64,000 nucleotides of DNA from Diacronema lutheri (taxonomy: Eukaryota > Haptophyta > Pavlovophyceae > Pavlovales > Pavlovaceae), in the NCBI GenBank assembly GCA_019448385.1, contig JAGTXO010000001.1, forward strand, positions 1,860,001-1,924,000, in the 5' to 3' direction. Below are positions 5,015 through 64,000 of the stretch, in pieces; the stretch's first letter is position 1, and each line of letters opens with the position of its first letter. The notes beneath the pieces were generated by a model. It was not told where the DNA came from. It searched no databases and was given only the letters and a program-made list of their open reading frames with translations. Made by a program: the position numbers and the translations under genes.

Positions 5015-5119
5015 CGAGCTCCACGCCGCGATGAGACGGCGGACGGCCGGCGCTCGGGGATGTAGGTGTCGTTTTAAAAGCTCATTTGCATTTGCACGCG
5101 GTAGGTCGCAGGGCGCGCA
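5015..5119. promoter_or_regulatory. divergent promoter of DnaJ and coproporphyrinogen oxidase
   Basis: A 105-bp gap between two divergent start codons. Its AT-rich core (5071-5098) has gttttaaaag followed by catttgcatttgcacg, two copies of TTTGCA. The same hexamer occurs in other gene-start gaps at 7815, 12672 and 18591. The promoter role is inferred from position and composition. Confidence 0.5.
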
Positions 5120-6556
5120 ATGATGCTGCCAGCGGCGGCGCTCGTGCTCGTCGTCGGGCTGAACGGTGCGCCGTGCGCCTCCGGTGCCGGTTGCCGCACC
5201 CCGCGCGTGCGCTCACACGCGGTGCCGTGCCACCGCCTGCCCTGCTCCTCGTTTGCCTGGTGCGCAGGCCCGTCGCCGCGGCTGCGCGGCGGCGTCAACG
5301 GCGGCTCCCGAGTGTCGCGCTCGGCCGTGGTGAACGCGGCGACGCAGCAGTCGCCGGCCGGTCTCGGCTTCAATTCGCACAAGCCGGTCAGCGATGTGCC
5401 GGACTCGCTCTGCCGCCCCGACGACGGCAACGCCGACACGCAGATGCGCCAAAAGTTCGAGCGCATGTGCCGCGCTGCGCAGAACAAGATCTGCGCGGCG
5501 ATCGAGGAGATTGACGGCACAAAGTTCCGCGAGGACGCTTGGACGCGCGATGGTGCGCTCCGTGCGCATGCGCCCTCGTCGCACTTCGGGTTGCCCGCGC
5601 GCTGACCCTCGCTGCGCGCGCTGCGCGCGCGCCGTCGGGCGTGCAGGCGGCGGCGGCGGCATCACGCGCGTGCTCGCCGGCGGCAACGTCTTTGAGAAGG
5701 CGGGATGCTCGCTGTCGGTGGTGTACGGCTCGATGCCCGCCGAAGCGCTGGCTTCGGCCACAGAGCGCGGCGCCGACCGCGCGAAGGGCATCAAGCCCGG
5801 CGAGCGCGTGCCCTTCTTCGCGTGCGGCCTCTCATCGGTCATGCACCCGCGCAACCCCATGGCGCCGACGATGCACTTCAACTACCGCTACTTTGAGACG
5901 GACGGCGGCGTGTGGTGGTTTGGTGGCGGGACGGACATCACGCCCGCCTACCTCTTCGAGGAGGATATGCGCCACTTCCACGGCACGTACAAGGTGCGCG
6001 CGCCGGGCGGGCGGAGCCACGAGCGCCGGGCATTCGGCGCGCCCGCCGCCGACCGCGCGTGCGCCTGCACATCCCTCTCGAGCGCATCTTCGCCGCGCAG
6101 GAGGTGTGCGACAAGCACGACCCGGACTTTTACCGCAAATTCAAGCAGTGGGCTGACGAGTACTTTATGATCAAGCACCGCGGCGAGACGCGTGGGCTGG
6201 GCGGCATCTTCTTCGACGACCTCAACGACCGGCCAGCCGAGGACATTTTCAAGTTCTCGACCGAGTGCGCGAACGCCGTGGTGGACGCGTACGTGCCGAT
6301 CGTGGCGAAGCGCAAGGACATGGAGTTCACCGACGAGCAGAAGCGGTGGCAGCAGCTCCGCCGCGGCCGCTACGTCGAGTTCAACCTCGTGTATGACCGC
6401 GGCACCATCTTTGGGCTCAAGACGGGCGGGCGCATCGAGTCGATCCTCATGTCGCTGCCGGAGACCACGCGATTTGAGTACGACCACCACCCCGTCGCGG
6501 GCACACCCGAGGCGAAGATCATGGATTGCTTCAAGAAACCGCGCACGTGGGTCTGA
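5120..6556 (+). CDS. oxygen-dependent coproporphyrinogen III oxidase, plastid type
   Basis: Converts coproporphyrinogen III to protoporphyrinogen IX in haem and chlorophyll synthesis (HemF/CPOX family). Three exons restore the family alignment: 5120-5552, 5647-5993 and 6101-6556, giving 411 aa. Intron 1 (94 nt, GTGCGC...GCAG, phase 1) joins EDAWTRD to [20 protein letters not shown], the glycine-rich signature. Intron 2 (107 nt, GTGCGC...GCAG, phase 0) joins HFHGTYK to [14 protein letters not shown]. Other family blocks are [41 protein letters not shown] and [20 protein letters not shown]. The N-terminus [22 protein letters not shown] is a signal peptide followed by an Arg-rich transit-like stretch, as expected for a complex plastid. 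It converges on the prenyl synthase gene with 92 bp between. Confidence 0.96.
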
Positions 6557-44067: not shown

Positions 44068-44540
44068 CGCACGGGCGTGAAAAGCCGACTCCGGCGCAAG
44101 GGCGTGGACATGAATCATCAGGCAGTGAGGATAACGTATAGATGGTCAAGCCAAATCCGATCAGGGGCACGATCGCGCCCCGAGTGCAGCGCGGGCCGTT
44201 CGGAAGGACGTCCTTGTGAGGGAGCTCTTCGCGTTTGGCGAGCGGGGGAGCACGACGCGCAGCGTTGCTGCGGCGGCGTGCGGGCGGCGAGCAGCGGTCG
44301 GGCTGCTCGCGACGAGGCCGGAGCAGACGGCGCCGTGGCCGCCGGCGCAGGTGACGCGCGCCGACGAGCCGTAGCGAGCGTCCGTGATCCGCACGGCGGT
44401 TGGAGCGGGCCGGCTGGTGCGGCGCGCTCGGCCACGGGTGGCGGCGTGCACGGTCGTGCCGCGCGCGGCACGCGTCGCCAGCCGCGCGCGACCTGGGCAG
44501 AGCCCGCAAAGCGTCGACCGCTGCGCGGCTCGGCCGTGCG
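44068..44540. other. convergent intergenic region, no gene recognised
   Basis: 473 bp between the RRP6 stop (+) and the stop of the giant Fanzor-bearing gene (-). It contains a less GC-rich patch (44085-44160, including gataacgtatagatgg) that could hold 3' ends. Short open frames exist on both strands but show no domain. No terminal inverted repeat or target-site duplication was recognised by eye. Confidence 0.5.
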
Positions 44541-46996
44541 TCAACGCCGGCCGCGCTTCGGCCCGCGCGCGCTGCCGCCGCCGGCACTGGCGCTGGCAGC
44601 TCCGCGGGCGGGGGTGCGGGCGCGAGAGCCGCCGCCGCCACCGCCGCCGCGCCCGCCGCCGTCGTCGCCACCGCCGTCGCCGCCGCCGCCTCCCCCGCCG
44701 TCATCGTCGTCGTCGCCGCCGCCGCCTCCGTCGCCGTCGCCGTCGCCGTCGCCCTCGCCGCCGCCGCCGTCGCCGCTGCCATCGTCGTCGTCGTCGTCGT
44801 CGCCCTCGTCGTCGCCCTCGTCGTCGCCGTCGCACTCGTCGTCGCAGTCGTCGCCCTCGCCGTGCACCATGCGCTCCTCACGCTCCCACACCTCGCCGCG
44901 CGCCCACCAGGCGAGCACGAGGGCAAAGCGCTCAGGCGTCGACGTGGTGTCGCGCCCGGCCGCGTGCGCCGCCATGTCGTGCACGTCGTAGAAGATGTTG
45001 CGCGCGGCGTTGTAGTCGCGGTGCACGGGCTTCTTGCCGCCGTTGCACGCCGGGCAGATGACGAGCGCGTGCACCGTGCGCGTGCCGCCCTTTGCCACTG
45101 GCAGGCGCGGGTTCTGCGCGAGCTCCGCGCCGCAGCGCTGCAGCCTGCCGCCCTTGGCGAGCCGCGGCATCGAGCAGTGCATCGACGTGTACGGCTCGGG
45201 CACGAAGACGGCCGCGACGCCGCGCCGCCGCAGCTCGCGCAGCAGCCCCACCTGGAAGGCGGGCGGCGCGCCCTTGGGCTGCGCGCCCTTGTGGTCGCGC
45301 AGCCACTTGCCCACGCACACGAGCAGCCGGTCGCGCGTCACGCCGTCGACACAGTGCGCCGCGATGAGCGCCTCGGCGACGCGCGCCGCGTTGGACCGCC
45401 CGCCGCTGTCGCGCCGCCAGCGCTCCTTCCGGCGCGCCGGCGCGTCGTACACGTGCTCGGCGGCGCGCTCGCGCACCCGCGCGCTCTCGCGGTGGAAGGC
45501 GATGTATTTGCCCGCGTCGAGCACCTTGGCGCTGTGCGCCTCGCCAAGCCGCGCCTCGTCCGCCTCCACGCTGAACTCCTCGCCGCGCCCGTCCTTGCGC
45601 ACGCGCCGCCGCGCCGCGTTGGTCTTGGCCGTCTCGCGCGCAAAGCCCGCGGCGCGCGCGCGCGCGCGCTGCGTGAACTGCCGCCAGACGGCCGCCCGCC
45701 CGACGTGCGCAGAGTAGGTGGTGATGTTGCCCATGTTCGGGTCGGCCGCGACGACGACCGCCGCCTCGACGTCGATCGCCCGCCGCAGCTCGGAGCCGAG
45801 CGCGACGGCGATGCGCCCGTCCGGCCGGCGCCAGCGGTGCAGGACGCCCGAGCCGCCGGCCGGCGCCTGCGCCTTCGGCACGAGGACGGTCCCGACGGCG
45901 TGCACGGCGACGCCATCTGTCACCACCGACTTGACGGGCTGCCGGCCCGGGAGCGGCACGCGCGGCAGCGGCGCGAGGCCAACCCACGAGCGCCGCGCGT
46001 GCCACGGCAGATCGGCCGGCGGCCGCTCGCGCCCGGCGTAGTCGAAGACGCGGTTGGAGATGTCGAAGCGCGTCGCAAAGACCGCGTACCTGACGCGCAC
46101 GTCCGACATCGGCGGGGTGTTGCCGTTTGTGCCTGTCCACTTGATCGGCTCGCCATCGTGGTCGCGCAGGTCCAGCGCCTTGAGCCGCGCGCGCAGCTCC
46201 TTGCGCTCGTCATCCGAAAGCGTCACCCAGATGGCGCTCGCGGCGAGGCGCACGTTGCGCGGCACCTGCGCGCAGCGCGCGGCGCGCGAGCGCGCGGGCG
46301 CGTGACCAACCTGGCCGCGGGGCGGCGCGCACGGCGGCGGCGCGCGCGCTTGGGCGCTCGGCGGCGGCAGCGGCAGCCACGCCTCGCGCGCACATTGTGC
46401 GTGCGCAGCGGCGCCACATTGTACCGCGGCGGCCGTCCGGTCAGCTGCGTGTGGATGTGCGCGAGCCGGCAGAGCAGCGCCTGCCCCTCGGCCACGTGCT
46501 GCAGGGTGCGGATCTGCACGAGGAAGTAGCGCGTCGTGTGCCGGTCGTAGTTCCACCTTTTCGTGGGCGTGCACTTGTAGTCGATCTTGTGGAGGACCAT
46601 GTCGGGCAGGTGGCGGTCGAGCGCGGCGGGGCAGCCGACGCGCGCGCCCTCCACGTCGCCGCGCAGCAGCCGCTCGCACAGCTCGCGCACGCGCGCGTTT
46701 CGCTGCATCTCGGGCAGCGCGACGAGCGCCTCGTCGCGCTCGACTGCCGCGCGGACGACGTCGCGGAGCAGCCCGTTCACGACGCGCGATGGATGCATCA
46801 GGCACGCGGTGGACACCTGCGTCGCCTCCGCCTCGAGGATCTCCGTGAGGCCCACCGCGCAGACGGGCTGGACGCCCTCGGCCATCTCGCCGACGGCGCG
46901 CGCCGTCGCCGCCTTGGTCTGCGCGGCGGCTTGCTCGGCGGGCTTGCCTCGGGGCGCTGCACCGTACGTGCTCTCGTCCTTGTGCCAGCCGATGGC
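44541..46996 (-). mobile_element. Fanzor (eukaryotic TnpB-like RNA-guided nuclease) region
   Basis: Fanzors are RuvC nucleases related to TnpB and Cas12, guided by an omega RNA. Catalytic pattern: VVVAADPNMGNITTYSAHV (RuvC-I Asp, plus-strand 45731-45748), VAAVFVPEPYTSMHCSMP (RuvC-II Glu, near 45195) and VHRDYNAARNIFY (RuvC-III Asp, near 45025). A four-Cys zinc knuckle is formed by the Cys of MHCS, the Cys of QRCG and CPAC. Family wedge/REC-like sequence starts upstream of the intron (HLPDMVLHKIDYKCTPTKRW, FLVQIRTLQHVAEGQALLCR) and continues SAIWVTLSDDERKELRARLK. No key residue is missing. The C-terminus carries a ~90-residue Asp/Gly tail. A guide RNA would be expected at or after the 3' end, but none could be identified by eye. 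Confidence 0.8.
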
Positions 46997-49900
46997 CGAG
47001 AAGATCGCACGGACGGTTCCCTTGTCCATCGTGGTCGACGTGTGCACGCTGGTCGACGGGCCGCCCGACGCCGCGCCGACGGCCTGCGCGCTCGCCACCG
47101 CAGCCTCGTCGCGCACCACCTTGTTGATGACGCGGTACGCCTGTGTCGTGAGCCTGTGCACGGCCGCCGCGATGCGCCGCAGCTCCTTCCGCGCACCGGG
47201 CTGCGCCGTCACCGCCTGCGGCCCCGCGTTGAGCGTCGAGCGCTTGACCACGAAGCCCGGGAGCACGCTGACGCGCGTGCGCGCCGTCGCGCCGCCGGCG
47301 GCGCGCGCGCTCGGCGCAGCGGGCTCGTCCACGCGCGCGCGCTCGACGCCGCGCGCGCGGGGAACGCTCGGCGCGCGCGCGCCCGCGGCGTCGCGCGCGC
47401 TCGCGGCGGCACCCGCCGCGGCGCGCTTGCCCGCGGCGCCCGACTCGCCGTGCGCGCGAAGCGGCGCCGACGCCAATGCCGACGCCGCGCCCGCGCCGCC
47501 GCTGCCGCTGCCCGATACGCCCGCGCGCCGCTTCTGCTCGTCGCGCGTCTTGCGGAACTGGGCGACGAGGTCGCTGCTCACGTTGGCCTCAGGCTCCCAC
47601 GTGTCGGCGCTCTCGTCGTAGCCCCGCCACCTGATCCGGAACTGGAACGTCACCTTCTTGCCCGCCTTGCGGCGCTCGTCGACGACCGCCTCGACCTCGT
47701 ACGTGCGCGCCTCCTCGTCGACGCTCGCGCCCGCCGCGCTCGCGCCCGTGTCCGGCCACCCAGCGACCGTGCCGCCCAGCCTCTCGGCGGCCGCGCGCAG
47801 CTGCCGCTCGCGCTGGGCGGCCGCGGCGCCTCGCGCGACCAGCGCGGGCAGCATGCCCGCGCCGCCCGCGAGGCCGTGCGCGCCGACGCTGGCGGTCATC
47901 AGCGCGTCGAGGCACGCGAACGTTGCGAGCGCACGCGCGCCATCGTCGCCGCCGCGCGGCTGCGAGCGCACGACGGGCGATGGCCGCGGCTCCCCCTCGG
48001 CCGCGAGCAGCGGCCAGATCGCACTGGCCAGCGCGACGGCATGCGCGCCGACCGCGACGGCCACGTCCGCGTCGAGCGGCGCAAAGTCGTAGCGCACGAG
48101 CGCGGCCGGGCGCGAGTCGTCCGTCGGCCGGTCGGCGACGAGCAGCCCGACCGGGCGCGGCGGCTCGCCGGACGGCGCGGCGACGGGCACGCAGAGGAGC
48201 ACGACGAGCAGGCGCGGCGTGCCGCCGAGCAGCGCGCGCGCGGCATCCGCCCCGTCGGCTCCGCCGCGCGCGGCCGCGGCGAGCAGCTCGGCCGCGCGCG
48301 TCGGGCCCAGCGCCGTGCGCGCGTCCTTGCGCGCGCGTGCGCGCGCCGTGTACGCGGCGCAGGCGTCGTCGAGCACCGCCGCGCTGGGCGCGGTGCCAGT
48401 CGTCGCCCACGCGCGCAGCGCGTCGCGCACCCGCGTGACGATCGCCTGGTCGACCGCCGCCTCGCCGGCAGCGTGCGCCGGCGCGCACGCCGGCGGTGCG
48501 GCGGCAGGCGCGAGCGCGGGCGCGCCGTCGGCGCCGTCAACGCCGACGGCGCCGTCGGCGCGCCGCCACGCGAGCTTCGCCTCGATCTGCTGCCGGACGG
48601 CGTGGCAGTGCCGGTCGATGCCGCGCGCGTCGTCGAGCGCGGCCAGCGCGTCCTCAGCGGCGGGACGGCCGCTCGCGTCCGCGACGGCCTGCAGGCAGAG
48701 CAGCGCGGCCGCACGCGCGTTGCACGCGCTCTGCGGCTCGGGCGCGAGCGCGAGCTCGAGCTCGAGCGGCGACGCGCCTCGCGCCGCGGCGATCGCGTCC
48801 ATCAGCACGTCCAACCGCTGCACCAGCGCCCTGTGCGCGTCGCGCGGCGCGCCCGTCGACGGCGCGCGCGAGCGCGTCGCCACGAGCCCGAGCGCGCGCG
48901 CCGGCGCGCCCGCCGGCGTGTGCAGCACGAGCAGCGCCGCGCCCGCCAAGCTCGCGTTGCGCGTGACGAGCGCGAAGATGCGCGTCGCTTCGTGCGCGCC
49001 CACCGACGCCCAGATCGCAGCGCGATCGGCGTCCGTCTGCGCGTCGCACAGGTCGCGCACGTCGTCCGGCGCGAGCAGCGCGCCGCCGCCGGCGGAGCGC
49101 GCGACGATCGCCCGCGCCTCCGCCACGAAGACGGCCTGCGGCAGGTCGGCGTGGCGCGCGTCGACGATGGCGCGCGTCGCGTGCACGCCGAGCTCCACGC
49201 CGCGGTAGAAGGCGCGCGCGTTGGCCGCGCGCGCGTGCGCCGGCCGTCCGTCCGCGTTGCGCCTCGCGCGCGCCTGCTTGCTCGTGCGCGCGAGGCCGTC
49301 GCGTGGCGGTGGCGGCAGCGTGGCGAGGAAGCGCGCGGCGGGCGGCGGCGCGCGCACGCCGCGCTGCCGCCGTGCGATGGCCGCGAGCCGCCGGCCCGCC
49401 GCGCTGCCGCCCGCGCCGACGTGCTGCCGGCGGCCGAGCGCCGCCGGTGGCGGCGGCGGCGGCGGCGCGGCGGCGGGCGGCGGCGCGACGGCGGGCGGCG
49501 GCGCGGCGGCGGGCGGCGGCGCGGCGGTGGGCGGCGGCGCGGCGGCGGGCGGCGGCGCGGCGGCGGGCGGCAGCGGCGGCGGCGCGGCGGCGACGGCAGC
49601 ACCAGTCGGCTTGTCCGCCCACGCACCCGAGACTCTGTCCCAGACCTTGCCCCATGGCGCGCGCCCACGCGGCCGCGCGAACTGCCCCGGCTCGAGCGCC
49701 TGGCCGCGCTTGGCGGCGGCGGCGGCGGCAGGGGGCGGGCGGCCGGCGCGCCAGTCGAAGACAGGTGCAACCGTGGCGGCAGGCGCCGAGTGCCGCGCGT
49801 CGGTCACAGAGCGCGTGGTGCGCGCGGCGACCGTGGCACGCCTGGCGGGCGGGCGGTGAGCAGCGCCCGCCGGCGCGCCGGCGGGCGCGGCCGCCTCGAG

Positions 49901-52900
49901 CCCGGCGGAGGCGCCGCGCTTGCGCTTGCGCGTGCCGCCGCGCGTGCGCCTGCGCGCGCGCCCGCCGCGCGCCCGTTCGGCCTGCGCGTCGCCAGCCGCG
50001 TCGCCGGCCGCGTCGCCGCGCCGCACGTAGACGACCGCGAACGCCTCCTCGCCGGTCCCGTCGACGCCGCCGCGCGCGCGGCGCAGGACCGACCGCCACT
50101 GCAGCCGCCGCGCGCGGCCGGGCTCGCACGCAAACCAGCGCCCACCGCGCCTGACGACGGCCACAAAGTCGTCGTCGCGCCGCCCGCGCCGGCGCGTGCG
50201 CAGCAGCACGCACTGCACGTCGAGCCAGCCCTCGTGCCAGTCGGCCGTGCTGGGGGCGACGCGAATCGACTGCGGGAGCTCGACGCCAAAGCCGGCGAGG
50301 CGCACGATGTGCGCGACGATGACGCTCGAAATGGCGGGGGCGCTCGACGGGTCGCCCGCTGCAGCGAGCACCGCCCCGCCCCAGTGCTCACGCGTGACGC
50401 AATCCGCGTCCTCGACGTGCACGTGCGCCACGCTCGCGCCGAGCTGGTGCAGCAACGCGCAGATGTCGGCGTCGACCGTCCTCTCCTCCTCGGCCGCCTC
50501 GGCCGTGCCGCGGGCGGCGGCGTCGCCTGCCGGCTGCCCGAGGTACGCGATCGCCCGCTCGACGGCCGCGCGCTCCGCACGCGCTGCGCTGTCGATCGCC
50601 GCATTGCCGACGGGCGCGCGCAGCGCCGCGATCGCGTCTTGCAACGCCGTCGCGTCGCCCGTCGCCGCCGCCGCCGTCACCGCCGCCGCGCTCGCGGTGC
50701 CGTGCGCGACGGCGTGCAGCGCGGCGGCGCGCGCGGCGGGGATGCGCCCGTCCAGCGCGAGCACGAGCGGCGGCCCGGCCGGCGTCTGCTGCCGCCGGTG
50801 CCGCCGGCTCGCAGCCGGGTGGTCGGCGCGCGCGCGCTCGAGCCGCGCGCGCCGCTCGACGACGCGCGCCCAGAAGGCCTGCACCCTCGGCTGCGCGAAT
50901 GCAAGCCAGCCGGCGCCGCGCGTCACGACGTGCACGACGATCCGGTCCTCGTGCCTGAGGTACTGCACGTAGAGCGCTTTGCGCACGCCGAGGACGTGCA
51001 TGCCGAGCTGCAGCTGATCGCGGTGCGGCTGCGGCGGCCCGTCCTCGTGCGCCGTGGCGCCCGCCTTGGTGAGCGTCTTCACCTCGACGAGGACCTGCTC
51101 GTTGTCTTCGGGGAGGATGGCGAGCCCGTCCGGCGAGAAGGCGAACGGCGCGCTCTTGTCGTGCGGGTCCGCACGCACCATCGGCAGGTTGCACACGACG
51201 GTGATGCCGTACGCGGCCGCCAGCTTGCGCAGCGCGACGGCCTCGCCGAGGATGCCCGCGGTCGTCGCCTTGGTCCGCACATCGCGCCGCCGCCGGTGCA
51301 CGTACTCGTCGGTGAGCGTCTCGTGCGCGACGCCGGCGTTGTCGTTCACGACGTCGCCAACCTTGCTGCCCGTGACCTCCTCCCATCGCTCGTCGTGCCA
51401 GCGCGGGCTGCGCTGCGCGGGCGCGCCCGCGCCGACGGCGTCGAGCACGCGGCGCAGCGCTGTGCCGTCGGGCGCAGCAGGCACGCGCGCGCGGTCCTGG
51501 GCCTCGCGAGCGTCGAGGACGCAGCCCGTAGTGGAATCTTGGGGTAGGTCGAGCTTGCTCGCCTCGCCGTAGCGGCTCTCCAGCTGGCGCGGTGCGTCGG
51601 CAGGGCCGCCGTCCGTGCGCGCACCCGACGCGCCCGCCAGTGCACGGGGCGCAGCGTCCGAGGCGCCCGCCGCGCCCGCGCCGCCGCCAATCGCGCCAGC
51701 GCACGCGCGCGCCGCGACCTGCGGACGGCCAGCCGCAGGGACCTCGTCCGCTCGGCCGGCCGCTGCGTCGGCCGTCCGCTTGGCCACCTCGCGCACGTCT
51801 CCGAGCGCGAGCGTGGCTGGCGCCGTCGAGCTCCCGTGGCGTTTGTTCCAAAACTCGAGCAGCCCGCCAAGGAAGGGCGTGCCCGTCGGGCGGTCCTCGG
51901 GCACCTCCGCCAGGATCGCGTCGACGCGCAGCGCGGCCGCCACATCGCAAAACGCGCGCGCGGCGCGCGCCATCCGCTCGGCGCGCGCGCCGCCGTCGTC
52001 CGCCGCGCGGCGGATGGCGTGGCTCACGTGCGCGACGCGGAGCGAGACGACGGCGTGCGCCGGCGCGTCGGCGCCCGTGCCGAGCGTGTGCCGCCGGATG
52101 GCCAGCTGCCCATCGCCCATGCGCGGCGGGAGCGACGCGCACGCCGCGACGGTCGTCTTGCCGGCCGCGCTGTCGCACAGCCAGCTCGCCTCGCCGCCGC
52201 CCGCAAACTCAAAGGTCGCGAAGCCCTCGCGGCCGAAAAGCGCGACGAAGTGGTCGAGCACCGCCTTGTTGATCGCGCGCGCCGCCGGCCGCGTCGATGC
52301 GCCGCGGGCAGCGCCACCCGCCGCGCCGCGCGCATCGCTGCACGTCGCAGGGCAGGTGCAGCCGGACGCGCGCACGCCGTCCGACCGCGTCCGCGGCAGC
52401 TCGAGCTCGCGCACCTTGGGGCAGAACCAGAGCGGGTTGGACGCCTCGAGGCACAGCACGACGAGCCGCCCGTCCGTGCCGGCCAGCGCGCGCGCGTCGC
52501 GCAGCAGCTCGACGGCGAGCTCGGACGTCGCCGCGTGCACCGCCGGCTCGCCCGTCGCGCGGTCGGGCGGGAAGAGGCCGCCGCCGACGAGCGGGCTGGG
52601 GCAGCGGCCGAGCATCACGAGCAGCGGCGGCGGCGGCGTCTGCGGCGCCTGCTGCCCGACCGCAGCCGCCGTCAGCCCGGCCAGGTCGGAGCTCGTGCGG
52701 AGGGCCTTGAGCGCGACGCGCGAGCCGGTGCCCGCCTGCTCGGAAAACGTGGCGAGCATGGCGCACGTGCTCGCCCTCGTGCCGCACTGCCAGCTGACGC
52801 GCGCGAGGAGGCCTTCCAGCGTGTCGTTTTCGCGCGGCCGCGTGACCGCGTCGAGCGCCGCCGAGTCGAGCTGGAGGCTGCCGGGCGTGACGCACAGCAC

Positions 52901-55109
52901 CGCCTCGTGGTAGGCGCGCAGCAGCTCCCTCGGCAGCTGCTCGGCGGGCGTCGCCGCCTGCCCGCCCACCCACCGTGCACCGTGGCCGCCGTCGCCCGCG
53001 CCCGCGAGCCGCACCGCCGGCCCGCCCGTGATCGCCGAGGTCGGTGGCGTGCCGAGCGCGTCGACGAGCGCGCGCACGGGCGCGACACGCCTGCGCGCAG
53101 CGTCCGCGCCGACGGCGAGCGCGGCGATCCGAGCGCCCTCCCATGCGCGCTCCCTCGCGTCGTCCCGCGCGGCCGCCGGCGCGGCGCCCGGCCGCGCGCC
53201 GGGCGGCACCGCGCACGCCGCCGCGACGACCTCCGCGCGCGCGCCGGCGGCGTCGGGCGCGTGCAGCTGCGCGAGCGCGCCAGAGAGCGCGGCGGCCGAG
53301 CGGTAGCGGCCGTGCGCCGCGACGAGCGCGTAGAGCACGCGCAGCGCGGCCACGCCCGCCTGGTCGGGCGCGTCGTCAGCGATGCGCTCGACCTCCCACG
53401 TGCGCGTGGGCGGCGGGCTGCCGTCGGCCGGGTCCGGACGCAGCGCCCACGCGCGCTCGACGATCGCGTTGAACACGTCGCGCGCGGCGCCCTCGTCAAA
53501 CTCGGCGGCGCCCGCCGCGTGCGCGCACCACCCGTGCACGCGCGACGTGGGCGCGTCCACGGCGCGCTGCACGACGAGCACCGCCGGCCGGTCGACGCAG
53601 CCGAGGCTCACCGCCGCGTGCTTGCCCTCGAGCAGCGCCGCCGCCGCAGCCTCGACCAAGGCGTCACCAGGCGCGTCGCCGACGACGACGGCACAGCCGT
53701 CGCCGTACTCGGCCTGCATCGCGGCGACGCACGACGCGACAAAGTCGCCGCCCGCGGCCGCCGCGTGTCGCGCCGCCAGCATCCGGCGCGCGATGGCAAG
53801 CCAGACGTACTCGGCCGGCGCGCGCGCGGCGCGCGCGCGAGGCGCGCCGGCCGCGCCGCGTGCGCCCGCGCGTGCGCCTCCAGCGGCCGCAACGGCCGAG
53901 GCGGCTGGAGCGGCGGTGAGCGTGCGCCGCGCGCGCTTCGCCGGCCGCGCGATGGGCGATGCACCCGCCATCGCCCCGCCCGCAGCAGCCGGTGCGGCCG
54001 CCACAGCGCCCGCCGCAACGCCACTCGTCACGACGCCCGTGGCGGGCGGCGCGGCGTCGGACGCGGCCGCCTCGACGGGCGTCGCGCAACTACCGCCAGC
54101 GGTCGCGGACGCGCCCGGCGACGCGTCGGCGAGGAGGTGGCGCAGCACGCCGCGCGCGAGCGCGACTCGCACGGCGAGCGTCAGCGCGCGCAGGCGGTCG
54201 GAAGGCGAGGCGTCGCGCTCGGCGTCGGCGGACGTGGCGGCAGCAGGCGGGGCGGCGGGCGGCACGGCGGCGGACTGGGCGGCCGCCGGCGCAACCTCGT
54301 CGGCCTTGGCCAGCCAGACGAGCCCGGCGACTGCGAGCACGACGCTGTACGCGCCGACATCGTCACCCGCAACGCGCGCCAGCCGGGCGTGGGCGTCGGC
54401 CTCGGACACGGCGACGCGGAAGAGCACGTCGTCGCGGGCAGCTTGCTCGGCAAACTGACGCAGCTGCTTGGCCATCGTCACGCCGGCGACGCACGCCTCG
54501 CCCGCCTCTGCCTCGACCTGCTCGTCCTGGCCGATGGCGGACGCGCCGGCCTCGGCGCCACCGTCGAGTGTCCGGCGGCGCTCGAGGGCAAAGCCACGCA
54601 CACAGACGCTCTGGAGGCCGCCGAGCGCGCCCGCCTTCTCGTGCAGCGCGCACGACAGCTCGACCACCGAGTCCACGCGCGTCGCGGCGGCGCCCCCCCG
54701 CTCGCCGCGCGTGGGCGCGCGCACGACGAACACCGTGAATTGCGCGCGCTTCGCCGCGCGCGCCGACGCGCACGCGTGCTTCAGGAGCCGGCAAAGCGCG
54801 GGCCTTTGCGCCGCTGCGCCCCGCGTGCACAGCAGCAGTTGGCCGCGCTCGTCGCCCAGCTCCTGCTCGATGGCGGCCTCGAGCGCGTCGTCCGTCAAAT
54901 CGCCGTGCTCCGTCGAGGCGAGCGCGCGCGCAGCCGCGAGCGCCAGCTCGCCTGCGCCCGCGCGCCGCCGGCGGCGCGCACCGGCGGGCGCGTGCGGCGC
55001 CGACGCGTGTGACGACGCCGCCGCGTCCGCGCGCGCACACGCGGCGCGCAACGCCTCACGCGCCGAGGCGGCCGCGCGCGCCCTGGGCGCGAGCCTCAAG
55101 AACGTGCGC

Positions 55110-55193
<84 letters not shown>

Positions 55194-58100
55194 TCGCCCG
55201 CGTCGCCGGCCGGCGGCAGCGGTGGCGGCGGTGACGGCGCGGCCACGGCGGCGGCAGCAGCGGCGGCGGCGGCGGTGGCGGCGGCGGCGGCGCCCAGCGC
55301 GGGCGGCGGCGGCGTGGCGGCGGCGGTGGCGGCGGCGGTGACGCCAGCGGCGGCCTTGGCGACGCGCGTCTGCGGCGGCGCTTCGGCGCGATCGGGGCTG
55401 CCCCCGCCACGCACCGCGCTCGTGCCCGCGCAGACGCCGCCCGGCGCACGATCGCTGGCCGCGCCGGTCAGCGCGACGCGGAGGCGCTCGCCGACAGCGT
55501 ACATGTCCGCCACGCTGAACGTGCGCGGCGCGGACGAGCAGCCCGCCGCGGCGAGCGCGTCGTTGAGCGCGCCCACTATCGCGAGGCCGCACGTCGCGCC
55601 ACGCTGCGCCGCCTCGTCGAGCAGCCGCGCGCGGCGCACGCGCGAAATGTCGAGACCCGCCGCGTGCAGCGTGGCAGTTATCGCCGTGGCGAGCACGAGC
55701 GCCCGCCTGCAGGGCGACGCGAGCGTGTCGACGAGCACCGCGTCGTAGCGACGCTCGCCCGCGCGCGCGACGCGCACAAGGCGCAACGCGGTGAAATGGC
55801 CGGAGGCGAGCTGCGCGCCGTCGTCACCGCCCGCGCCGCCGCGCTCGTCCGACGGGCTCCACACGCCGATGACAGCCTGCGTCGTCGCCTCGCTGCGCAG
55901 GCGGTGCAGCAGCGCGGCGCGCTCGGCGCCGTCCTGGAACACCGCGGGTTGCGCGGCGAGCGGCACGTGGCAGACATGCCCGCCGCCGGCCTGCCCGTGC
56001 ACGCGTAGCACGACCTCGCAGCACGCGTCGACGGTTGAGGCGAGCATGTCGCCGCTGGCGATGCGCTCCACCTCTGCCTGCGGGAGGCCGGCGCTCGCGG
56101 CGGCGGAGGCCAGCCGGCGCGCAGCCGCGTCGCCCGCCCACGCAAGCAGCGCCGAGTTGGCGGGTTGGAGGGGAAGCTCAAGGGCGGCTGGTTCGGTGGC
56201 GGTAGCCTCGTTGGCAACGGGCACGTTGGCGGTGCGCACGTTGGCGGCGGGCGCGGCGGCGATGGCTGGTGGGGCGGAGGACACGCCCGCGGCGGCAGGC
56301 GCGGACGCGACAGCGGCAGCGGCTAGCGGGGCGGGGAAAACGCCGTCGGTGGCTGGCGCGGAGGCGAGTGCAGGAGCAACTAGTGGGGCGGGAAAATCGG
56401 CGGCAGGCGCGAAGGCGGATGCAGCAGCGGCTAGTGCGGCGGGGAAAACACCGTCGGCGGCAGGCGCGAAGGCGGATGCAGGAGCGCCCAGCGGGGCGCA
56501 GAAAACACCGTCGGCGGCAGGCGCGAAGGCGACAGCAGCAGTGGCCAGTGGAGCGGAGGCGCAGGGCCACGCGCGCGCCAGCCGTGCAAGCCCAAGCCGC
56601 GCGCGAGCGACGCACGCGCCGATGGCCGAGGCGGCGGCGCAGGCCACGACGTGGCCTGGCACCGGTGTGGCCAGCCGCTCGCGGGTGTGCACGTCGAGCC
56701 GCGCCCCACGCCAAGAGCGGCGGCGCGCTGAACGGAGGCGCGCGACCCCGATCGATCCGCCCGCGCACGCGCGCGCCGGCTCAGTGTGGCCAACGCGCGC
56801 CGCTATGCAAGGCGCGCGCGCGATAACGGCGGCTGTCGGCCGTGGCGTGCGCGTGGCGGCGCCGCGGCGACGGGCGCGGCACACGAGCCGCTCGGGCGCG
56901 CCGCCGCCGCGCGGCACGATGTCGAGCAGCACGGTCACGCCGCGCGCGCGCGCGACCGCCGTGCACGCGAGCCGCACGGGCAGCGGCGGCCCGTCCGGGC
57001 GCGCGAGCGCCGCCACCTCGGCGTCGGTGAGGCTGTGCAGCTCGCGGCGCGCGCGCGCGAACGCGGCGATGTCCGCGCGCAGCTCCGCGTCCGTGCCGAG
57101 CGCGGCACGCGCGTGCACGGGGAGCGACGCGCGCAGCGCGTGGAGCACGCCGCCGCGCGCGCCGCGCGGCGCCGGCGCGCGCTCGCGCTCAGCGCGCGCG
57201 GCGCGCGTGAGCTCGCGCACCGCGCGCGCGAGATTGCGCCGCGCGGCCGCGACGGGAGGGCTAGGTGCGCGCGCGCGCCGGTTGTAGCGCGGCCGCGCCG
57301 AGTCGAGGGGCGGCGGACGCGGTGCGTACGCCGCGGCGCGGCCCGCGCGCCAAAAGGCCGGCGGCGGGCGCAGCTCCGTCGCGTCGACCGCGGCCGCGAG
57401 CGCGCCGAGCGCGGCGTCGCTGTCGCCCGCCGCGTCGGCCGCGTCGACGAGCACGAAGAGCGCGCCGAGCGCGCGCGACGCGGCCGCCTGCGCGGCGGTG
57501 GGGCGGGCGCAGGCAGCGACGCATGCGGCCGCCATGCCGCGCGCCGCGGCGAACGCCGGTGACGTGACGGCCGCGCCGATGGCAACGGCGGCGGCGGCGA
57601 CGGTCGAGGCGGCAGCGCCGGCGATGGAGGTGGCAGCGGCGGCGGCGCTTGCCATCGCGCGGCGCGCGAGACGCGAGGCGCCACCGACCGCCGCCGCCGC
57701 AGCGCGCGCTGCGCGCGCGCCGGTGGCGCGCATCGTCGCCGCGCCAGGCGCCGCCGCGCCGACGCCGCCGGCGCCCGCGCCGTCGCCGCTCTCGGCCGTG
57801 CAGGGCTCCGATGGCGAACCCGGCGTGCGCTGGCGCGTGATGCGCGCGCCGAGGCGCGCGCTCCGCGCCGCGCGGCCGGCGACGTCGAGGAAGCGCCGTG
57901 CGCGCGCCGCGCGCAGGCCACGCGCGCGCGGCGGCGCAGCGACAGGCGCCGAGCGCCGCGGCGCGCACGCCGGCGCGTCGCTGTCGGGTTGCGCAGCGCG
58001 CGCGCGGGAACTCGGCGCGGCGTGTGCGGGCGGCGGGCGCGCGCCCGCGCGGCGCAGAGGCGCGAGGCGCCGGCCGCAGACGAGGCGTGTGCGCAACCAG

Positions 58101-61100
58101 GACGGCGAGGGCCGCAGGGCGCCGTCGACGTCGCGCATCGGCGGGCCGCGAGCCCGCCGCGCAGCCGTGCGGCGCGCGCGAGGCGCTCGGCGGCGCGCGC
58201 GCCGCACGGCGCGCGCGGCGGCGCGCACGCCAGCGACGGCTGCGGCCACGCCGCGCGCCAACACGGCCGCGGCGTGCGCCATCGCACCGAGCACGGCGCG
58301 TGGCGCGCCGAGCAAGCGCAGCAAGCGCGACGCCGTCGCGCGCGCCGGCGCACTGTGTGCAGGGGCCTCGCCAGCGCCAGCACCGACGCCGCCATCGCCG
58401 CAGCCGCAGGTGGCGTCGCCGCCGCCGCAGGCGTCGCGACGGACGCCGCCGCCGCCGAAACAATCGCCGCACACGTCGCCGCCGACGTTGCCACCCCAGC
58501 CGCCGTTGCGTGCGCAGGTGGCTGCGGCGCGTGCGTGCGGGAGGCGTGCCGTGCGGCGCGCATCACACGGGCTGCGCGACGCGAGCGACGCCGCCGGGGT
58601 CCCCGCTGCGCCAGGCGCGCCGTGCGTGCCAGCCTCGCCGGCCTCGCCGGCGCGCGGTCGCGCGCTCGCCTCGACGTGGCCGCCTCCGCCGCCATCGCCG
58701 CCGTCGAACCGGGCGGCGGAGGGCTGCCGCTCGAACCGCTCGTCGGCGTCGGCCGCCACCGCCGCCTCGCGCTCCGCCGCCGCGGCGGCCGCCGTACGCG
58801 CGTGGCGGAGCGCGCGGCCGCCGTCCGCTGCGCGGCGTGGCGGCGCGGGCGCCGCCTTCGGCGCGCGCGGCCCCTCGGCGCGCTCGCGGAGCACGGCGAG
58901 CGGCGTGCCCGTGGCGACGCTCGTGCAGACGCGCCGCAAGGCGGCGCTTACGCACGCGTGGACGACGCGCGCCGTCCGCTTGTCGGCGGCGCGCGCGGCG
59001 CGGCGCGCGGCCTTGGCGGCGGCCTTTTTGGCGCGCCTCTGCTCCGCCTGCTCCGACAGCGCGCGCGCCTGGCGCTCGGCTGCGAGCGCGTCCTCGGGCG
59101 AAACGGTCGGCCTCGGCGGCCGCGCGCGCGCGCTGCGACGCTGCGCGCTGCGGCGGTCGGACGGCGGCTGCCGCGGCGGCGAGGACGGCGAGCGCGAGCT
59201 CGGCGTGGGCGACCAATCGCCGCTGACGGTTGCGAGCGGCGCAAACGGGTTGTCGTCCCCGCGCCCCGCGGCGTGCGACAGTGCACGCGGCGTCGGGCGC
59301 CGGCCGACCGCTGGCGGGCCCCACTCGGACGGCGGCTCCGAGGGCGAGCGCGCCGTCGGCGCCGCGCGTTGCGCGGCCGGCGGCGCCTCCCGGTCCAGCG
59401 CCGCCTGCTCTCTCGCCGCGGCCTGCTCGTCACCCTCCGGCACGCCACGCGGCGCGAGCACCGCGGTGGCGCAGCGCGTCGCGTTGAGCAACGCCGCCTC
59501 CATCTGCCGCACGCTGGCCTTGGCGCACGCCACACCCTGTCTCGCCCGGCGCAGCGCCTCGTGCGCGCGGCGCACATCCGCGTCGGCATCTTCGCGCATG
59601 CCAAAGTGCGCCTGTTGCAGCCGCAGGTCCGCAGGGCGCCCCTGCGCGCGAGGGGCACGGGCGCGGCGGCGCGCGGGTGACGGAGCTGGCGCGCCGTTCT
59701 GCGCTGCGCGCACGCCAATCGACGGGCGCGCGCGCGGCGGGGCGCGCGCGCGCGCACGCGCGCGCGCTGCCTACCCAGCCGCCGGCCGGCTCGCGCGAGC
59801 GCGCCAGCTGCTCCGCCGCCTCGGCGTCGAGCACGCGCTGCTGCGCCTCCTCCTCGCCCAGTGCAGCGAGGTGCAGCCGGCGGGCTGCCTTGCGGCAGTT
59901 GCCCTCCGCCTTGCCCACGGCCTTGCGCGCCGCGTCGACGGGGTCGTCGTTGGCTCTGTCGCGCCTGCGCTTGCCCTTGTCGGCGGGCGGCGGCTCGGCG
60001 CGCTGCGGCGCGCCGAGCGCGTCGTCGGCTCCGCGCGCGGCCGCCCGCGGGCGGCGGGCCCCAAAGAGCGCACCGGTCGCCGTGCGCGCCGCGCAAGCAA
60101 CGACCAGCGCTGACATGCCGGCGAAGACCGCACCGCCCAGCGCCACGGTTGCCACGATGCGCAGCGTCCCGTGCGCAGGCCGCGCTGCCTCCGCCGCTTT
60201 GGCGGCCTCGCGCGCGCGCGCATCGGCGGCTCTCATCTCGTGCAGCAGCCCGGCCGCGCCGCTCGCGCCGTCGCGGCCGCGCGCGAGCTCGCACAGCACC
60301 GCCGCCGCGTGCCGCGTGGGCTCGCGCGCGAGCAGCTGCGCGCCGCCGTCGGGGCGCAGCTTCTCAACGAACTCGACAAACGTCGCGTCGCGCCAGAGGG
60401 ACATGCAGAAGGCCCTGTGCACCACCCCCTCTTGCTCGCGCATCCGCCGTGCCGCCCGCCTGCCGTCGCGCGCGTGCGCGTGCGCGGCCGCGTCGAATCC
60501 AGCGACGCCGCGCTGCGCGTCGCGCACGGCCGACGACGGCGCCGCCGCGCTGCCCGCCAAGGGCGCCGCAGCGGCGACGCGCGCGTGCGGAGCGACGGGA
60601 TCGCCGGCGGCCGGCGGCTCGGCGCGCTGCGGCGTGCCGTTTGCTCCGCGCGCGGCCGTCCCGGGGGAGATGGCCGCGATGGCGCCGCCAGCCGCGCCGT
60701 GCGCCAGCCACGCGCATAGGCTGCCGACGAGCTCGCCGAGACCCCCGACGGTCGCCGCGGCGGCGAGTGCGCCGGGCTTGCCGGCCGACAGCGGCTCGCG
60801 AGCGTCGTCGTCGCAGCCGCCGGCACCCGTCTTGGCGAGTGCGTCGCGCTCGCCCGCGACGCCCGCCACGACCGCCGCCCCTCCGTCGTCCGCCGCGCCG
60901 GCCGCGCGCGCGGCCGGGCGCAGAGGAGGCGTGCCGGTGCAGCCGTCGCCGCTCGTCTTCGCCGTTTCCTCCACCTTGATCGCTTCGTCGCCACCTGCGC
61001 CATCTCCGACGCCGGGGCCCTTGGTCACGCTTGCCGCCATGCGCGCCGTGCCCGCCGGCCAGCCCGCCGACTGCTCGAGCGCGGCGGCGAGCGGCGCGAC

Positions 61101-63449
61101 GCGCGCCGACTCGGGCGCGCTCTCGTCATCGGGCTCGGGCGCGTTGTGCAGGCGCGCGAGCGCGCGCTCGACGGCCGCGGCGCCACTGCCGGGGGCGCGG
61201 CTCGCCGCGCGCACCGCGCGCCGCCAGGCCGGCGCGAACATGAGCGCCGACTCGAGCGCCGCGAGCGCGCGCGCCTCGCGCGCGTCGCTCGCGCCGAGGC
61301 GCGGCGGCACGCGCGCGGCGCCGCGCGGCGCGGTGCCTCGGAAGCGTGGGCTCAGCGTGTAGGCGAGGTGCTGCGGCACGCCGCGCGCCTCCGCGCGCGC
61401 GCGTCCGTCCTCGACCTCGCGCCGCGCCTTCGCGATCGCCGGCGTGGCGCGCGCGAGCCAGTCGGGGTCGGCGGGCAGGTGGATCACGACGAGAATCGGC
61501 GCCCAGTCCAGCCGCGGGTTCTTGTGACGGTCGGGCACGACCCACACGAGCAGCACCGTGCCCTCCGCGCCGCACGCCGCCTCGTAGATCCTGGGCTGCG
61601 AGCGCCAATCGGGCCTGACGCGCAGCGCCCGCGCGTGGTCGATGGCGGCGGCGCGGTCGCCATTGAAGTGAACCGTCGTCACCTCGCCGTTGACGGACCG
61701 GCCGGACCGCCAGCAGAACACCGCGTCCGCCGACCCGCCGGCGATGGCCGCGAGCGATTCGGGCGCGGCGAGCCGCGGCAAGCCCTCGAAGGCGGCAAAG
61801 TCCTCGTGCGCATTGTACACGCCGCCCCAGCCGTCGTGCGCGTACGCGCGCGCGGCCGCTCGTACCGCGCGCGGCTGGTTCTCCACGCCCGACGTCATGT
61901 GCCATGTCGTCCCCGCGAAGCCGGGCTCGCCCAGCTCGGCCCGCACGACGTTACCGTACCCCGCGCCCTGCGTCGGGGCGGCGAGGTGGTGCATGCCCGC
62001 GCCGGTCACGCCCTCCGTGCGCTGCCGCGTGACGATCGTGCCCGTCGCGTGCGCGAAAAGCGTGTCGACCACGGCGGGCGCGCGCCCGCTGTTCGCCCGT
62101 AGCCGCGCCCTGCCCGCTTTTAGCTGCTCGGGGTCCTTGGCGTCGTACACGCGCGCGTCCGCGTCGCCCTCATCAGGCGCAGTGTAGACGCAGCGGCGTT
62201 CGAGCGGCGCCGAGCGACCGCCGTCCGCGGCCGCCGGCGAGGTTGGCGCCGCGCCCGCCGCCACCGCGCTCGTCGCCGCCGTGCCCGTCGCCACCGCCGC
62301 AGCCGCCGCGCCCGCGAGGTCGTCGTCCCCGTCCTCCGCGCCCTCCCCGTCGTCAGCGGTGGTGGCGTCGCCATCGTCCCCGTCGCCCTCGCCCCCGCTG
62401 AGGCTGCTGAATGGTCGGGGCCCCCACGCCGAGGCGGCGCGCCGCTGCGGCGCACGCGGCGGTGGCGCTCGCGACGGCGGCCTTGGCGCCGCCGCGCCGC
62501 GCGGCCTGGCCGCCGTCGACAGCGCGCGGCCTGCAGCGCCCGTGAGCGCGTCGAGCGCGGCCGTGCGTGCGATGCGGTCGTCGGGCGCGCGCAGCGCCGC
62601 CTCGACGGCCTGCAGCAGCCCGTCGGGCGCGGATCCGCCGACACTGGCATCGCACGCCTCGGCGAGCCGCGCGGCCTCGGCGAGCCGCGCGGCCTCGCGG
62701 GTGAACGGGCCGAAGCGCCTGGCGCGGTCGCCGAGCAGAGCGCCGATGGCGGCGCGGAGCGTGCGCGCGCGGGTCTCCTCGTACGCGGCCGTCGTGAGGC
62801 GCGCGAGGCGCGCGTCCAAAGCCTTCTTGATGTCGACAAGGACATTCGCGCGGCGGCCGTAGAGCGTCGATGCGCTCGCCACGACCTCGGCCGCGACTGT
62901 TGCCGCGGCGAAGCAACACGCGGCCCCACTCTGCGGGGGCGCCTTGAAGGCATCGATGGGCGGCGCTGTTCTGCCGATGCGCTGCGCAAGCTTCTTGATG
63001 AGCACGCCGGCCGCCGTGGCGTACGCCGATTCGCCGTTGCCCAAGGTGCGCGAATCGGCGAGCAGGGCGAGCGCGGCGCCGGGCGGCGCGCCGCGCTGCG
63101 CGGGCGGCGCGAGGAGCAGGTACGCCGCCGTCCAGTGCGCGAGGCCGCTGGACGCGCGGAGGCAGAGCGGTAGCACGACCACGAGCACCTGCCCAAACCG
63201 GTCCGCATCCGCGCATGCTTTGCGCAGGTTGCGCAGCGCCACCTTGAGCGCATGCTGCGAGCACCCCGTGTCGCCCACCCTAACCCTGCTCGTGCCGAAA
63301 TCCGCGTAACGCAGCAGGGCGATGAGGCAAGTGGATGGGACCACGTGGGGGTGGGTATCTCCCGGCGACAGAATGGTGCTGAGGGCCAGCGAGAAACTGT
63401 CCGAGCCGCCCCGCCCGCCGGGCAAAGCGTCCTTCACGGAGTCCTCCAT
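44541..63449 (-). CDS. giant multidomain protein: Ulp1-like protease, YqaJ-like nuclease, chromodomain, Fanzor nuclease
   Basis: Three long minus-strand frames link through two phase-0 introns. Exon A is 59775-63449. Intron 59699-59774 (76 nt, GTAGGC...GCAG) leads to exon B, 46394-59698. Intron 46266-46393 (128 nt, GTGCGC...GCAG) leads to exon C, 44541-46265. Total is about 6,234 aa. Domains by approximate residue: Ulp1-like protease 30-200, single TM helix 1095-1120, charged coiled coil 1150-1300, second Ulp1-like domain 2445-2640, YqaJ-like PD-(D/E)xK nuclease 3985-4180, chromodomain 5218-5280, Fanzor nuclease about 5480-6110, acidic tail with terminal GPKRGRR. Between them lie long Ala/Arg-rich linkers and amino-acid repeats. 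Long unbroken frames suggest it is or was recently functional. It could instead be two or three adjacent genes. The combination suggests a DNA transposon or a domesticated derivative; no capsid, polymerase, integrase or reverse transcriptase is seen. Confidence 0.55.
44671..44876 (-). repeat. Asp/Gly low-complexity tail coding repeat
   Basis: Imperfect trinucleotide array (gtc, gcc, gtcgtc on the plus strand) that encodes alternating Asp- and Gly-rich blocks at the C-terminus of the Fanzor-bearing protein. Confidence 0.8.
47533..47727 (-). other. chromodomain
   Basis: TYEVEAVVDERRKAGKKVTF, then QFRIRWRGYDESADTWEPEA and NVSSDLVAQFRKTRDEQ. It has the chromodomain core YxVExIL-like start, YLVRWKGY-like strand (FRIRWRGY), and TWEPxxNL-like end (TWEPEANV). 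Chromodomains bind methylated histone tails and occur in integrases of some retrotransposons and in HP1. Here it lies about 200 residues before the Fanzor region, within the same open frame. Confidence 0.85.
49430..49590 (-). repeat. Pro/Ala-rich 18-nt-type minisatellite
   Basis: About seven near-identical units of gcggcgggcggcggcgcg encode AAPPPA repeats in the giant protein. Unit boundaries shift by small changes (tggc, acgg). Confidence 0.8.
50840..51420 (-). other. YqaJ-like PD-(D/E)xK nuclease domain
   Basis: QRSPRWHDERWEEVTGSKVG resembles the YqaJ start (RxxRxTGSxxG). TAGILGEAVALRKLAAAYGI supplies the W/G-E helix. FAFSPDGLAILPED gives the catalytic SPDG Asp. QVLVEVKTLTKAG is the ExK strand. 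HRDQLQLGMHVLGVRKALYV matches the Y/HxxQxQxxMxVxG helix. YqaJ exonucleases take part in phage recombination and DNA repair. All expected acidic and Lys residues are present. Confidence 0.75.
55109..55192 (-). repeat. (GGC)28 trinucleotide repeat, poly-Ala
   Basis: An 84-bp perfect GGC array in the giant gene, read as about 28 alanines. Located between the second Ulp1-like domain and downstream linkers. Expected to be length-unstable. Confidence 0.9.
55470..56050 (-). other. second Ulp1-like cysteine protease domain
   Basis: The His-Asp-Cys triad is recognisable: SGHFTALRLVRV (His near 55797), RYDAVLVDTLASP (Asp near 55730) and DEAAQRGATCGLAIVGALND (Gln and Cys near 55595). Spacing (about 21 and 45 residues) fits C48/Ulp1 proteases, which cleave SUMO or related tags and are common in large DNA transposons. 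Preserved residues suggest activity. Confidence 0.65.
56260..56550 (-). repeat. about 66-nt tandem repeat
   Basis: Around five imperfect copies encode a 20-22-residue unit of the form AFAPAADGVFxAPLxAPA in the giant protein. Copies differ by substitutions and short deletions, suggesting recent expansion. Confidence 0.8.
62900..63449 (-). other. N-terminal Ulp1-like cysteine protease domain
   Basis: GLAHWTAAYLLLAPP (His near 63137), LALLADSRTLGN (Asp near 63060) and APPQSGAACCFAAATVAAEV (Gln and Cys near 62925) fit the Ulp1 pattern HW...DS...QxGxxC. Located at the start of the giant frame, after PSTCLIALLRYADFGTSRVR. Confidence 0.65.
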
Positions 63450-63720
63450 CTGCAGACTGTGGGCACGTCAGTGTCCGGATGGCGGCCCGGATGATACTTG
63501 GGAGAATTTACATGATGCCCTGGAGAATGCCCCGCTCTCCCACAACCAGGACCCGCCAGCGCGCCGAGCCTACTCGTTTGCCCGCGCCGCCTCTCTTTGC
63601 GCGCCCGAGCGCGGCCTCCGAGCGCGGCCAACGTCCTCCGGGGGCGTGCATCGTGGCTGCTCGGAGGGGCTGCGACGCGGCGAAAGCTCGCTGCGCGGCC
63701 GCAACGTGAGCGCGCGCGCG

Positions 63721-63780
63721 CGGCCGCGCGCCGGCCTGCGCTGCTCTGCACGGCCGCGCGCCGGCCTGCGCAGCCTCGTC
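63721..63780. repeat. two-copy 30-bp tandem repeat
   Basis: The 21-mer cggccgcgcgccggcctgcgc occurs at 63721-63741 and again at 63751-63771, giving a 30-bp period. Confidence 0.85.
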
Positions 63781-63973
63781 GCGCAGCGTGAGCGCGAGCG
63801 CGCGCGCGGTGAGCTCGGCGGATGGGTGCGCGGCGGCGTTGGCGGCGGGTGCGGCGGCAGGCTGGGCGGCGGGTTTGGACGGAGAGTGTCGGGGAAGAAC
63901 GGGGCGCATCCTGGTTGGGAGTTGGACGGCGCCCACCACGCGCTGGCGGATCCTGGTTGCCACCACCACCAAA

Positions 63974-63989
63974 CCCCCCCCCCCCCCCC
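63974..63989 (+). repeat. C16 homopolymer
   Basis: Sixteen consecutive C near the window end, after a CAC-rich stretch. No gene context available. Confidence 0.9.
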
Positions 63990-64000
63990 GGAGACGAGGA

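Follow-up and report, generated by a model that had tools for sequence, protein, structure and literature searches.

The window analysed here, 64,000 nucleotides of the genome of the haptophyte Diacronema lutheri, contains at 44541–63449 on the minus strand a reading frame built of three long ORFs, 59430–63449 (1339 aa), 46223–59713 (4496 aa) and 44541–46805 (754 aa), all present as claimed in the original prediction. The claim that these frames join in phase through two short introns also holds: both introns have GT-AG borders, and splicing them out yields 18,705 nt, that is, 6,234 codons and one stop. On the minus strand, the resulting giant gene consists of exon A (59775–63449; residues 1–1225), a predicted intron 1 of 76 nt (59699–59774), exon B (46394–59698; residues 1226–5660), intron 2 of 128 nt (46266–46393) and exon C (44541–46265; residues 5661–6234 and the stop). 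Intron 2 is backed by KFE25_006464, an annotated D. lutheri gene model for a related sequence, since its junction (N|VPRNVRL) is identical to the predicted one; D. lutheri gene models were built with RNA-seq evidence, according to the accessible part of the genome paper (PMC8379373).

As the region is 80% GC, long ORFs alone are weak evidence. We generated 100 random sequences with each of an order-1 and an order-2 Markov model of the region, and their longest open frames were 1,401 aa and 2,689 aa, respectively. The 4,496-codon frame of exon B is longer than in all 200 random sequences; exons A and C alone are not, and need other evidence because random frames reach their lengths. For exon C this is the TNB domain match described below, and for exon A it is the coding signature. 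In the joined gene GC3 exceeded GC2 in 21 of 21 segments of 300 codons, and the order GC3 > GC1 > GC2 was seen in 20 of them, GC1 being slightly higher than GC3 in the segment starting at codon 2101. The best frame was that of the joined gene in 41 of 42 segments of 450 bp (44586 to 63036), the lone off-frame segment (56286) being a tandem repeat, and its switches coincided with both introns at the 450-bp resolution.

The YqaJ-like domain proposed for this gene was recovered at 50852–51424 (minus strand) as a RecE/YqaJ-type exonuclease domain by the RecE-like exonuclease family PHROG_434 (E-value 7.5e-16), though the Pfam YqaJ profile fell short of its cut-off both with the whole ORF (0.025) and with the piece (0.0021). 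In PHROG the same stretch also matched another exonuclease family (8.3e-9), a phage family labelled as virion structural protein (6.3e-7) and a Cas4-type exonuclease (0.0015). The motifs E, D (in SPDG), ExK and QxQ, which we take to be those of RecE/YqaJ exonucleases, are visible in it by eye, and the homologue search with this region gave one match among about 8,000 candidates scored. The residues immediately before the exonuclease are matched by the EukProt entry P0003 (Pavlova lutheri), presumably transcriptome-derived, judging from its scaffold name. The chromodomain, likewise predicted earlier, was found at 47549–47701 (minus strand) by the Pfam Chromo profile (PF00385, E-value 5.1e-12), which with 46 bits passes the curated cut-off of 25.1, and its DNA motif has 214 matches in the genome.

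The Ulp1-like, de-SUMOylating proteases of the original prediction did not hold up in the same way. Two possible cysteine-protease-like regions on the minus strand can be read by eye, HW...D...Q...CC at 62850–63335 and GHF...D...QRGATCG at 55388–56161, and no Pfam, PDB or homologue match to an Ulp1-like protease was found in the giant gene. The single-sequence models of both regions (pLDDT 50 and 38, respectively) are of too low quality for a verdict on the fold, and the homologue search with the N-terminus of the giant gene gave no match among about 8,000 candidates scored. Genome-wide, the C48 profile had nine matches and none in the window copy of the element described below; those on contigs C4, C5 and C6 lie outside the transposon copies compared, and the remaining ones are on C86, C89 and C102.

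The C-terminal part of the giant gene resembles a Fanzor nuclease. Its N-terminal share (46394–47263, minus strand, in exon B) was aligned with a second Fanzor family of D. lutheri, and its RuvC and TNB part (44865–46265, minus strand) carries D5835, E6017, Cys 6064/6067 and RD 6076–6077. The zinc-binding TNB domain at 44994–45233 (minus strand; PF07282) matched with an E-value of 2.4e-6 and 28.0 bits against a curated cut-off of 26.3 and, together with the retained D-E-D residues of RuvC, bears out the Fanzor signature predicted for exon C. A locus of the second family (L059) is 28% identical to the Fanzor part, with D, E, the second Cys pair and RD kept in both, and EPYTSMHC of the giant gene aligns with its ESYTSQDC. 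The glutamate lies six residues ahead of the first zinc Cys, the distance from the zinc finger at which the accessible text of PMC10711439 places the alternative RuvC-II glutamate of Fanzors. D5835, TS6020–6021, C6064xxC6067 and RD6076 obey the spacing of the Fanzor motif D-X(125,275)-[TS][TS]-XX-C4-X(5,50)-RD (as stated in the part of PMC3627910 available), the first zinc pair not being CxxC: its position reads CSMP, and the following Cys comes 14 residues later. RuvC-I reads DPN and not DPG, which the available portion of PMC10711439 describes as near exclusive in Fanzors; the D itself is kept. Because DPN and CSMP depart from the canonical residues, the activity of this Fanzor is uncertain. 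Sequence comparison of the Fanzor part with PDB gave no significant match (the best was Cas12f1, 0.41), and its homologue search gave two matches among about 8,000 candidates scored.

The exonuclease, the chromodomain and the Fanzor N-terminal part lie in a single unbroken frame of 4,496 codons. As a single open reading frame, the fusion of Fanzor, chromodomain and nuclease is supported. The locus might instead give rise to several proteins, through separate promoters, alternative splicing or proteolysis, as a polyprotein or a gene cluster does. We regard this as a substantial possibility, short of an even one: the predicted 76-nt intron is the sole link between exons A and B, ATGs occur early in exon B at residues 1259 and 1291, and KFE25_006464 spans just a short piece of the gene, while the common frame of the three domains and the junction between exons B and C in that same model argue for one chain.

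The giant gene is part of a larger element, which occupies 44136–64000 of the window (minus strand). Its left boundary at 44136 is the same in eight copies with differing flanks (two more begin at a contig end), and the right boundary of the window copy, 26,268 bp in total, lies at C9:1930403, some 6.4 kb beyond the end of the window. The coordinates 44541–63449, given originally for the whole feature, are thus correct for the gene, while the element runs from 44136 to past the window end. The left terminus, GTATAGATGGTCAAGCC (44136–44152, plus strand), has 197 exact copies in the genome and the right terminus 208, with none for the reversed controls in both cases. These roughly 200 copies with exact ends bear out the reading, offered originally as one of two, of an elaborate element. 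Pairing was attempted for 89 of 100 left ends taken (197 counted) with 99 of the 208 right ends; 61 of the 89 were paired with a right end, and some of the 28 unpaired ones are close to contig ends. Fifty-four of the 61 paired copies fall into four narrow length classes, near 21.5, 26, 29 and 31 kb (12 copies at 21.4–21.7 kb, seven at 26.0–26.9, eight at 29.1–29.5 and 27 at 30.4–31.1), and the seven others are 12.7, 22.2, 31.6, 32.2, 32.5, 35.9 and 57.6 kb long. The mean of 58 pairs (12.7, 35.9 and 57.6 kb dropped) is 28.1 kb. Assuming an average of 28 kb and counting from 69% to all of the 197 left ends as copies, the element makes up an estimated 9–13% of the 43.5-Mb assembly.

The copies are highly similar: identity over 2.8 kb was 99–100% in all 40 rows scored out of 957 candidates. 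The genome search with TNB gave at least 148 matches (150 of 306 candidates scored), 116 of which score 31.0–31.5 bits like the window copy; in 108 of these 116 the open frame around TNB equals or exceeds exon C in length, and in eight it is shorter. The feature makes up the greater part of a single copy of a giant, young, abundant and recently active DNA transposon. In the window this transposon begins 68 bp past the stop codon of an ORF that carries Rrp6/EXOSC10-like domains. Contigs C1 and C12 start, and contig C8 ends, precisely at the element terminus, which fits the inability of reads to span an identical repeat of 31 kb.

The element ends in GTATAG and [CG]TATATA. Palindromes can be seen by eye near both ends, and the DNA fold there is near shuffle level (z of -0.9 and -1.6). 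In 20 copies with both flanks TATA is common to both ends, the base preceding the left TATA is G in all 20, and the base following the right TATATA is mostly G (15 copies), otherwise C (four) or A (one); no flank-to-flank match, such as a target-site duplication, was found in these 20 copies in the one register tested. The search for an empty site through a flanking repeat, itself rearranged, gave none.

The non-coding stretch at 44136–44540 (minus strand) separates the Fanzor stop codon from the left element end by 405 bp and is where the scaffold of an omega-RNA would be expected. The guide RNAs of TnpB and Fanzor start at the end of the element and read on into the flanking DNA, and by its position the stretch could fit such an RNA; its RNA fold (z of -0.9) is near shuffle level and lends no support to it. 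For eukaryotic transposons the duplicated target site is said to belong to the RNA scaffold (PMC10711439, accessible text).

The gene content to the right of the giant gene differs between copies. A stretch similar to UCH-type ubiquitin proteases is present in both copies scanned on this side, the window copy (L025, E-value 5.3e-8) and the 30,483-bp copy on C30 (L034, 3.6e-8). The C30 copy also carries a PIF1 helicase in two frames, which implies an intron; these match the Helitron transposase Helraiser (7lcc) with 1.4e-20 and 1.6e-6, and are closer to it than to cellular PIF1 (6e-5 at best). No PIF1 was found in the right part of the window copy, and the genome search for Pif1_2B gave no match there. 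Six-frame readings of L034:4000-9999, L060 and L025:5001-7500 and the Pfam search of the giant ORFs gave no Rep/HUH domain, and no DDE or other transposase matched in the giant-gene ORFs or the right-side stretches read. The sole match to the Rep-domain profile Helitron_like_N in the genome is at C63:35738-36019.

A second Fanzor lineage is present in the same genome. At least 14 Fanzor loci have TNB scores of 43.9–44.5 bits, against 31.3 bits in the window family, and form a canonical family; canonical motifs are found in all three loci read of these fourteen. The D. lutheri genome contains no fewer than two Fanzor families besides that of the window, both with canonical DPG and each closing a long frame, in L059 (C9:378501-386500) one of 1,670 aa and in L065 (C86:1017601-1023000) one of about 1,400 aa. 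In five of the 14 loci (on C1, C25, C71, C75 and C78) a Pif1_2B match lies 5.5–19 kb away (150 of 160 candidates scored), and in four of these five the helicase is upstream on the same strand; the other nine have no Pif1_2B near, apart from two beside copies of the first family. C25 also has a right terminus of the giant transposon about 5 kb beyond the helicase. The helicase and the long-form Fanzor thus seem to recur together, the counts being small.

The pattern of substitutions was determined for 26 alignments from 26 loci, several of which are overlapping pieces of one copy. Among 150 unique substitutions 39 were synonymous, compared with 30% expected; the recent burst of copies is near neutral and shows no sign of purifying selection. 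Frameshifting gaps were seen in two of the 26 alignments, both of copies at contig starts, and were mostly within a GC repeat, one falling in exon C. Against an older relic, L066 (C49:212601-216200), 100 of 271 substitutions in four blocks were synonymous (four overlapping alignment rows dropped), a weak signal of purifying selection. This relic has internal deletions and retains residues 2391–2724, 4598–5222, 5798–5879 and 5951–6175 of the giant gene.

Such near-neutral evolution is what one would also see if the Fanzor were a decayed or passive passenger, non-cutting or only binding, in an element moved by its helicase or by other means. The DPN in place of DPG, the broken first CxxC and the lower TNB score relative to the canonical family point the same way. 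All three acidic residues are kept, however, the long open frame around TNB persists in nearly all members of the window family, and just one frameshifting gap lies in exon C; we consider a passive Fanzor rather unlikely, though less so than the remaining alternatives. An endogenous large DNA virus or virophage is far less probable. Helicases, RecE-type exonucleases and proteases are known from viruses, and two phage matches could be read in this sense, that of the exonuclease stretch to a virion structural protein and a Phage_cement_2 match (0.033, under the cut-off) beside PIF1 in one frame of the C30 copy; yet the former falls on the nuclease domain, where the better matches are labelled exonuclease, neither the giant ORFs nor six frames of the right-hand part matched a capsid, packaging or DNA polymerase profile above its curated cut-off, and two queries had no relatives in viral contigs, and the viral origin was rejected. 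Domestication by the host, the other reading offered originally and compatible with the big intact ORF, is contradicted by about 200 exact-ended copies with differing flanks, nearly identical where compared; it was rejected and is the least credible of all.

We infer that the best explanation, with about an even chance of being right, is a transposon with a giant Fanzor-exonuclease-chromodomain protein, whose RNA-guided cutting and resection would aid its copying. A non-coding RNA from the 405-bp stretch, reading into the flank, would guide Fanzor to the unoccupied or sister site, the RuvC site would cut at the guided target, and the fused exonuclease would resect the break. The helicase could then aid copying by strand displacement or recombination; copies that have none, like that in the window, would receive it in trans. 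The chromodomain might carry the complex to silenced chromatin. Because the 20 flank pairs share nothing beyond TATA in the register tested, a fixed guide choosing new sites is argued against, and cutting of the empty or sister site followed by copying back would be favoured. A stronger version, a self-contained RNA-guided copying machine with Fanzor cutting, RecE-type resection and chromodomain targeting in one polypeptide, within a giant element class in which PIF1 helicase and long-form Fanzor recur, seems to us unlikely, slightly more so than the passive Fanzor.

Among known systems, Fanzor1 (Bao and Jurka 2013, PMC3627910; Saito 2023, PMC10432273; both as far as accessible) is alike in the D-E-D of RuvC, the alternative glutamate and TNB, and likewise sits in a DNA transposon near its end. 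Most Fz1 proteins have 600–700 aa (PMC11423790, available text), whereas here the Fanzor is the C-terminal end of a frame of roughly 6,200 aa with an exonuclease and a chromodomain, and has DPN and an imperfect first zinc pair. In the literature searched, which left subscription journals and bioRxiv largely outside and was in part available as partial text, no description of a Fanzor fused to YqaJ, Pif1 or a chromodomain was found. With the RecE or lambda-exonuclease class (YqaJ) the giant gene shares the profile and the motifs; its exonuclease, in contrast, lies inside a transposon frame ending in a Fanzor nuclease.

Helitrons and Helitron2 share a Helitron-type PIF1 helicase with the 30.5-kb C30 copy, and palindromes were seen by eye near both ends. 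Helitron1 has the ends 5'-TC and CTRR-3', and Helitron2 has asymmetric TIRs with two hairpins. The giant transposon has neither TC/CTRR ends nor a Rep/HUH found in the stretches searched, and the window copy lacks the helicase. The helicase gives the element a resemblance to Helitrons, and with no Rep found it is not classifiable as one. Fanzor1 is known inside Helitrons, according to the available part of PMC3627910. The ISL2EU elements of the PHIS superfamily have a YqaJ exonuclease ORF in common with the giant transposon, but encode a DDE transposase with a THAP domain and make AT duplications (PMC4482050, as far as accessible), whereas the giant transposon has no DDE match and is 21–31 kb long.

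Why eukaryotic transposons keep Fanzor is an open question (PMC10432273, in the text available). Here a recent and very successful element combines a Fanzor with an exonuclease of the resection type and with a chromatin reader, and this unusual packaging of nuclease, exonuclease and chromatin reader has spread to about two hundred places of one genome. It makes the cut-and-copy idea testable, as the partners of the cut would share one chain, and genome engineering could draw on it as a natural fusion of nuclease, exonuclease and chromatin reader. The D. lutheri genome paper reports 22.9% repeats, most of those annotated being LTRs, at 32.7% of masked bases, and LINEs, at 3.8%, and the element class seems to be unrecognised in it, because the word stem "transpos" is absent from its accessible text (PMC8379373).

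Two further observations concern neighbouring and related sequences. The gene model KFE25_006464 combines an N-terminal piece of a Fanzor with SAM domains, a possible exon capture from the transposon. Elsewhere in the window, at 20226–28279 on the minus strand, two adjacent ORFs with matches to SAD/SRA, a methyl-cytosine reader, are probably one gene split by an intron.
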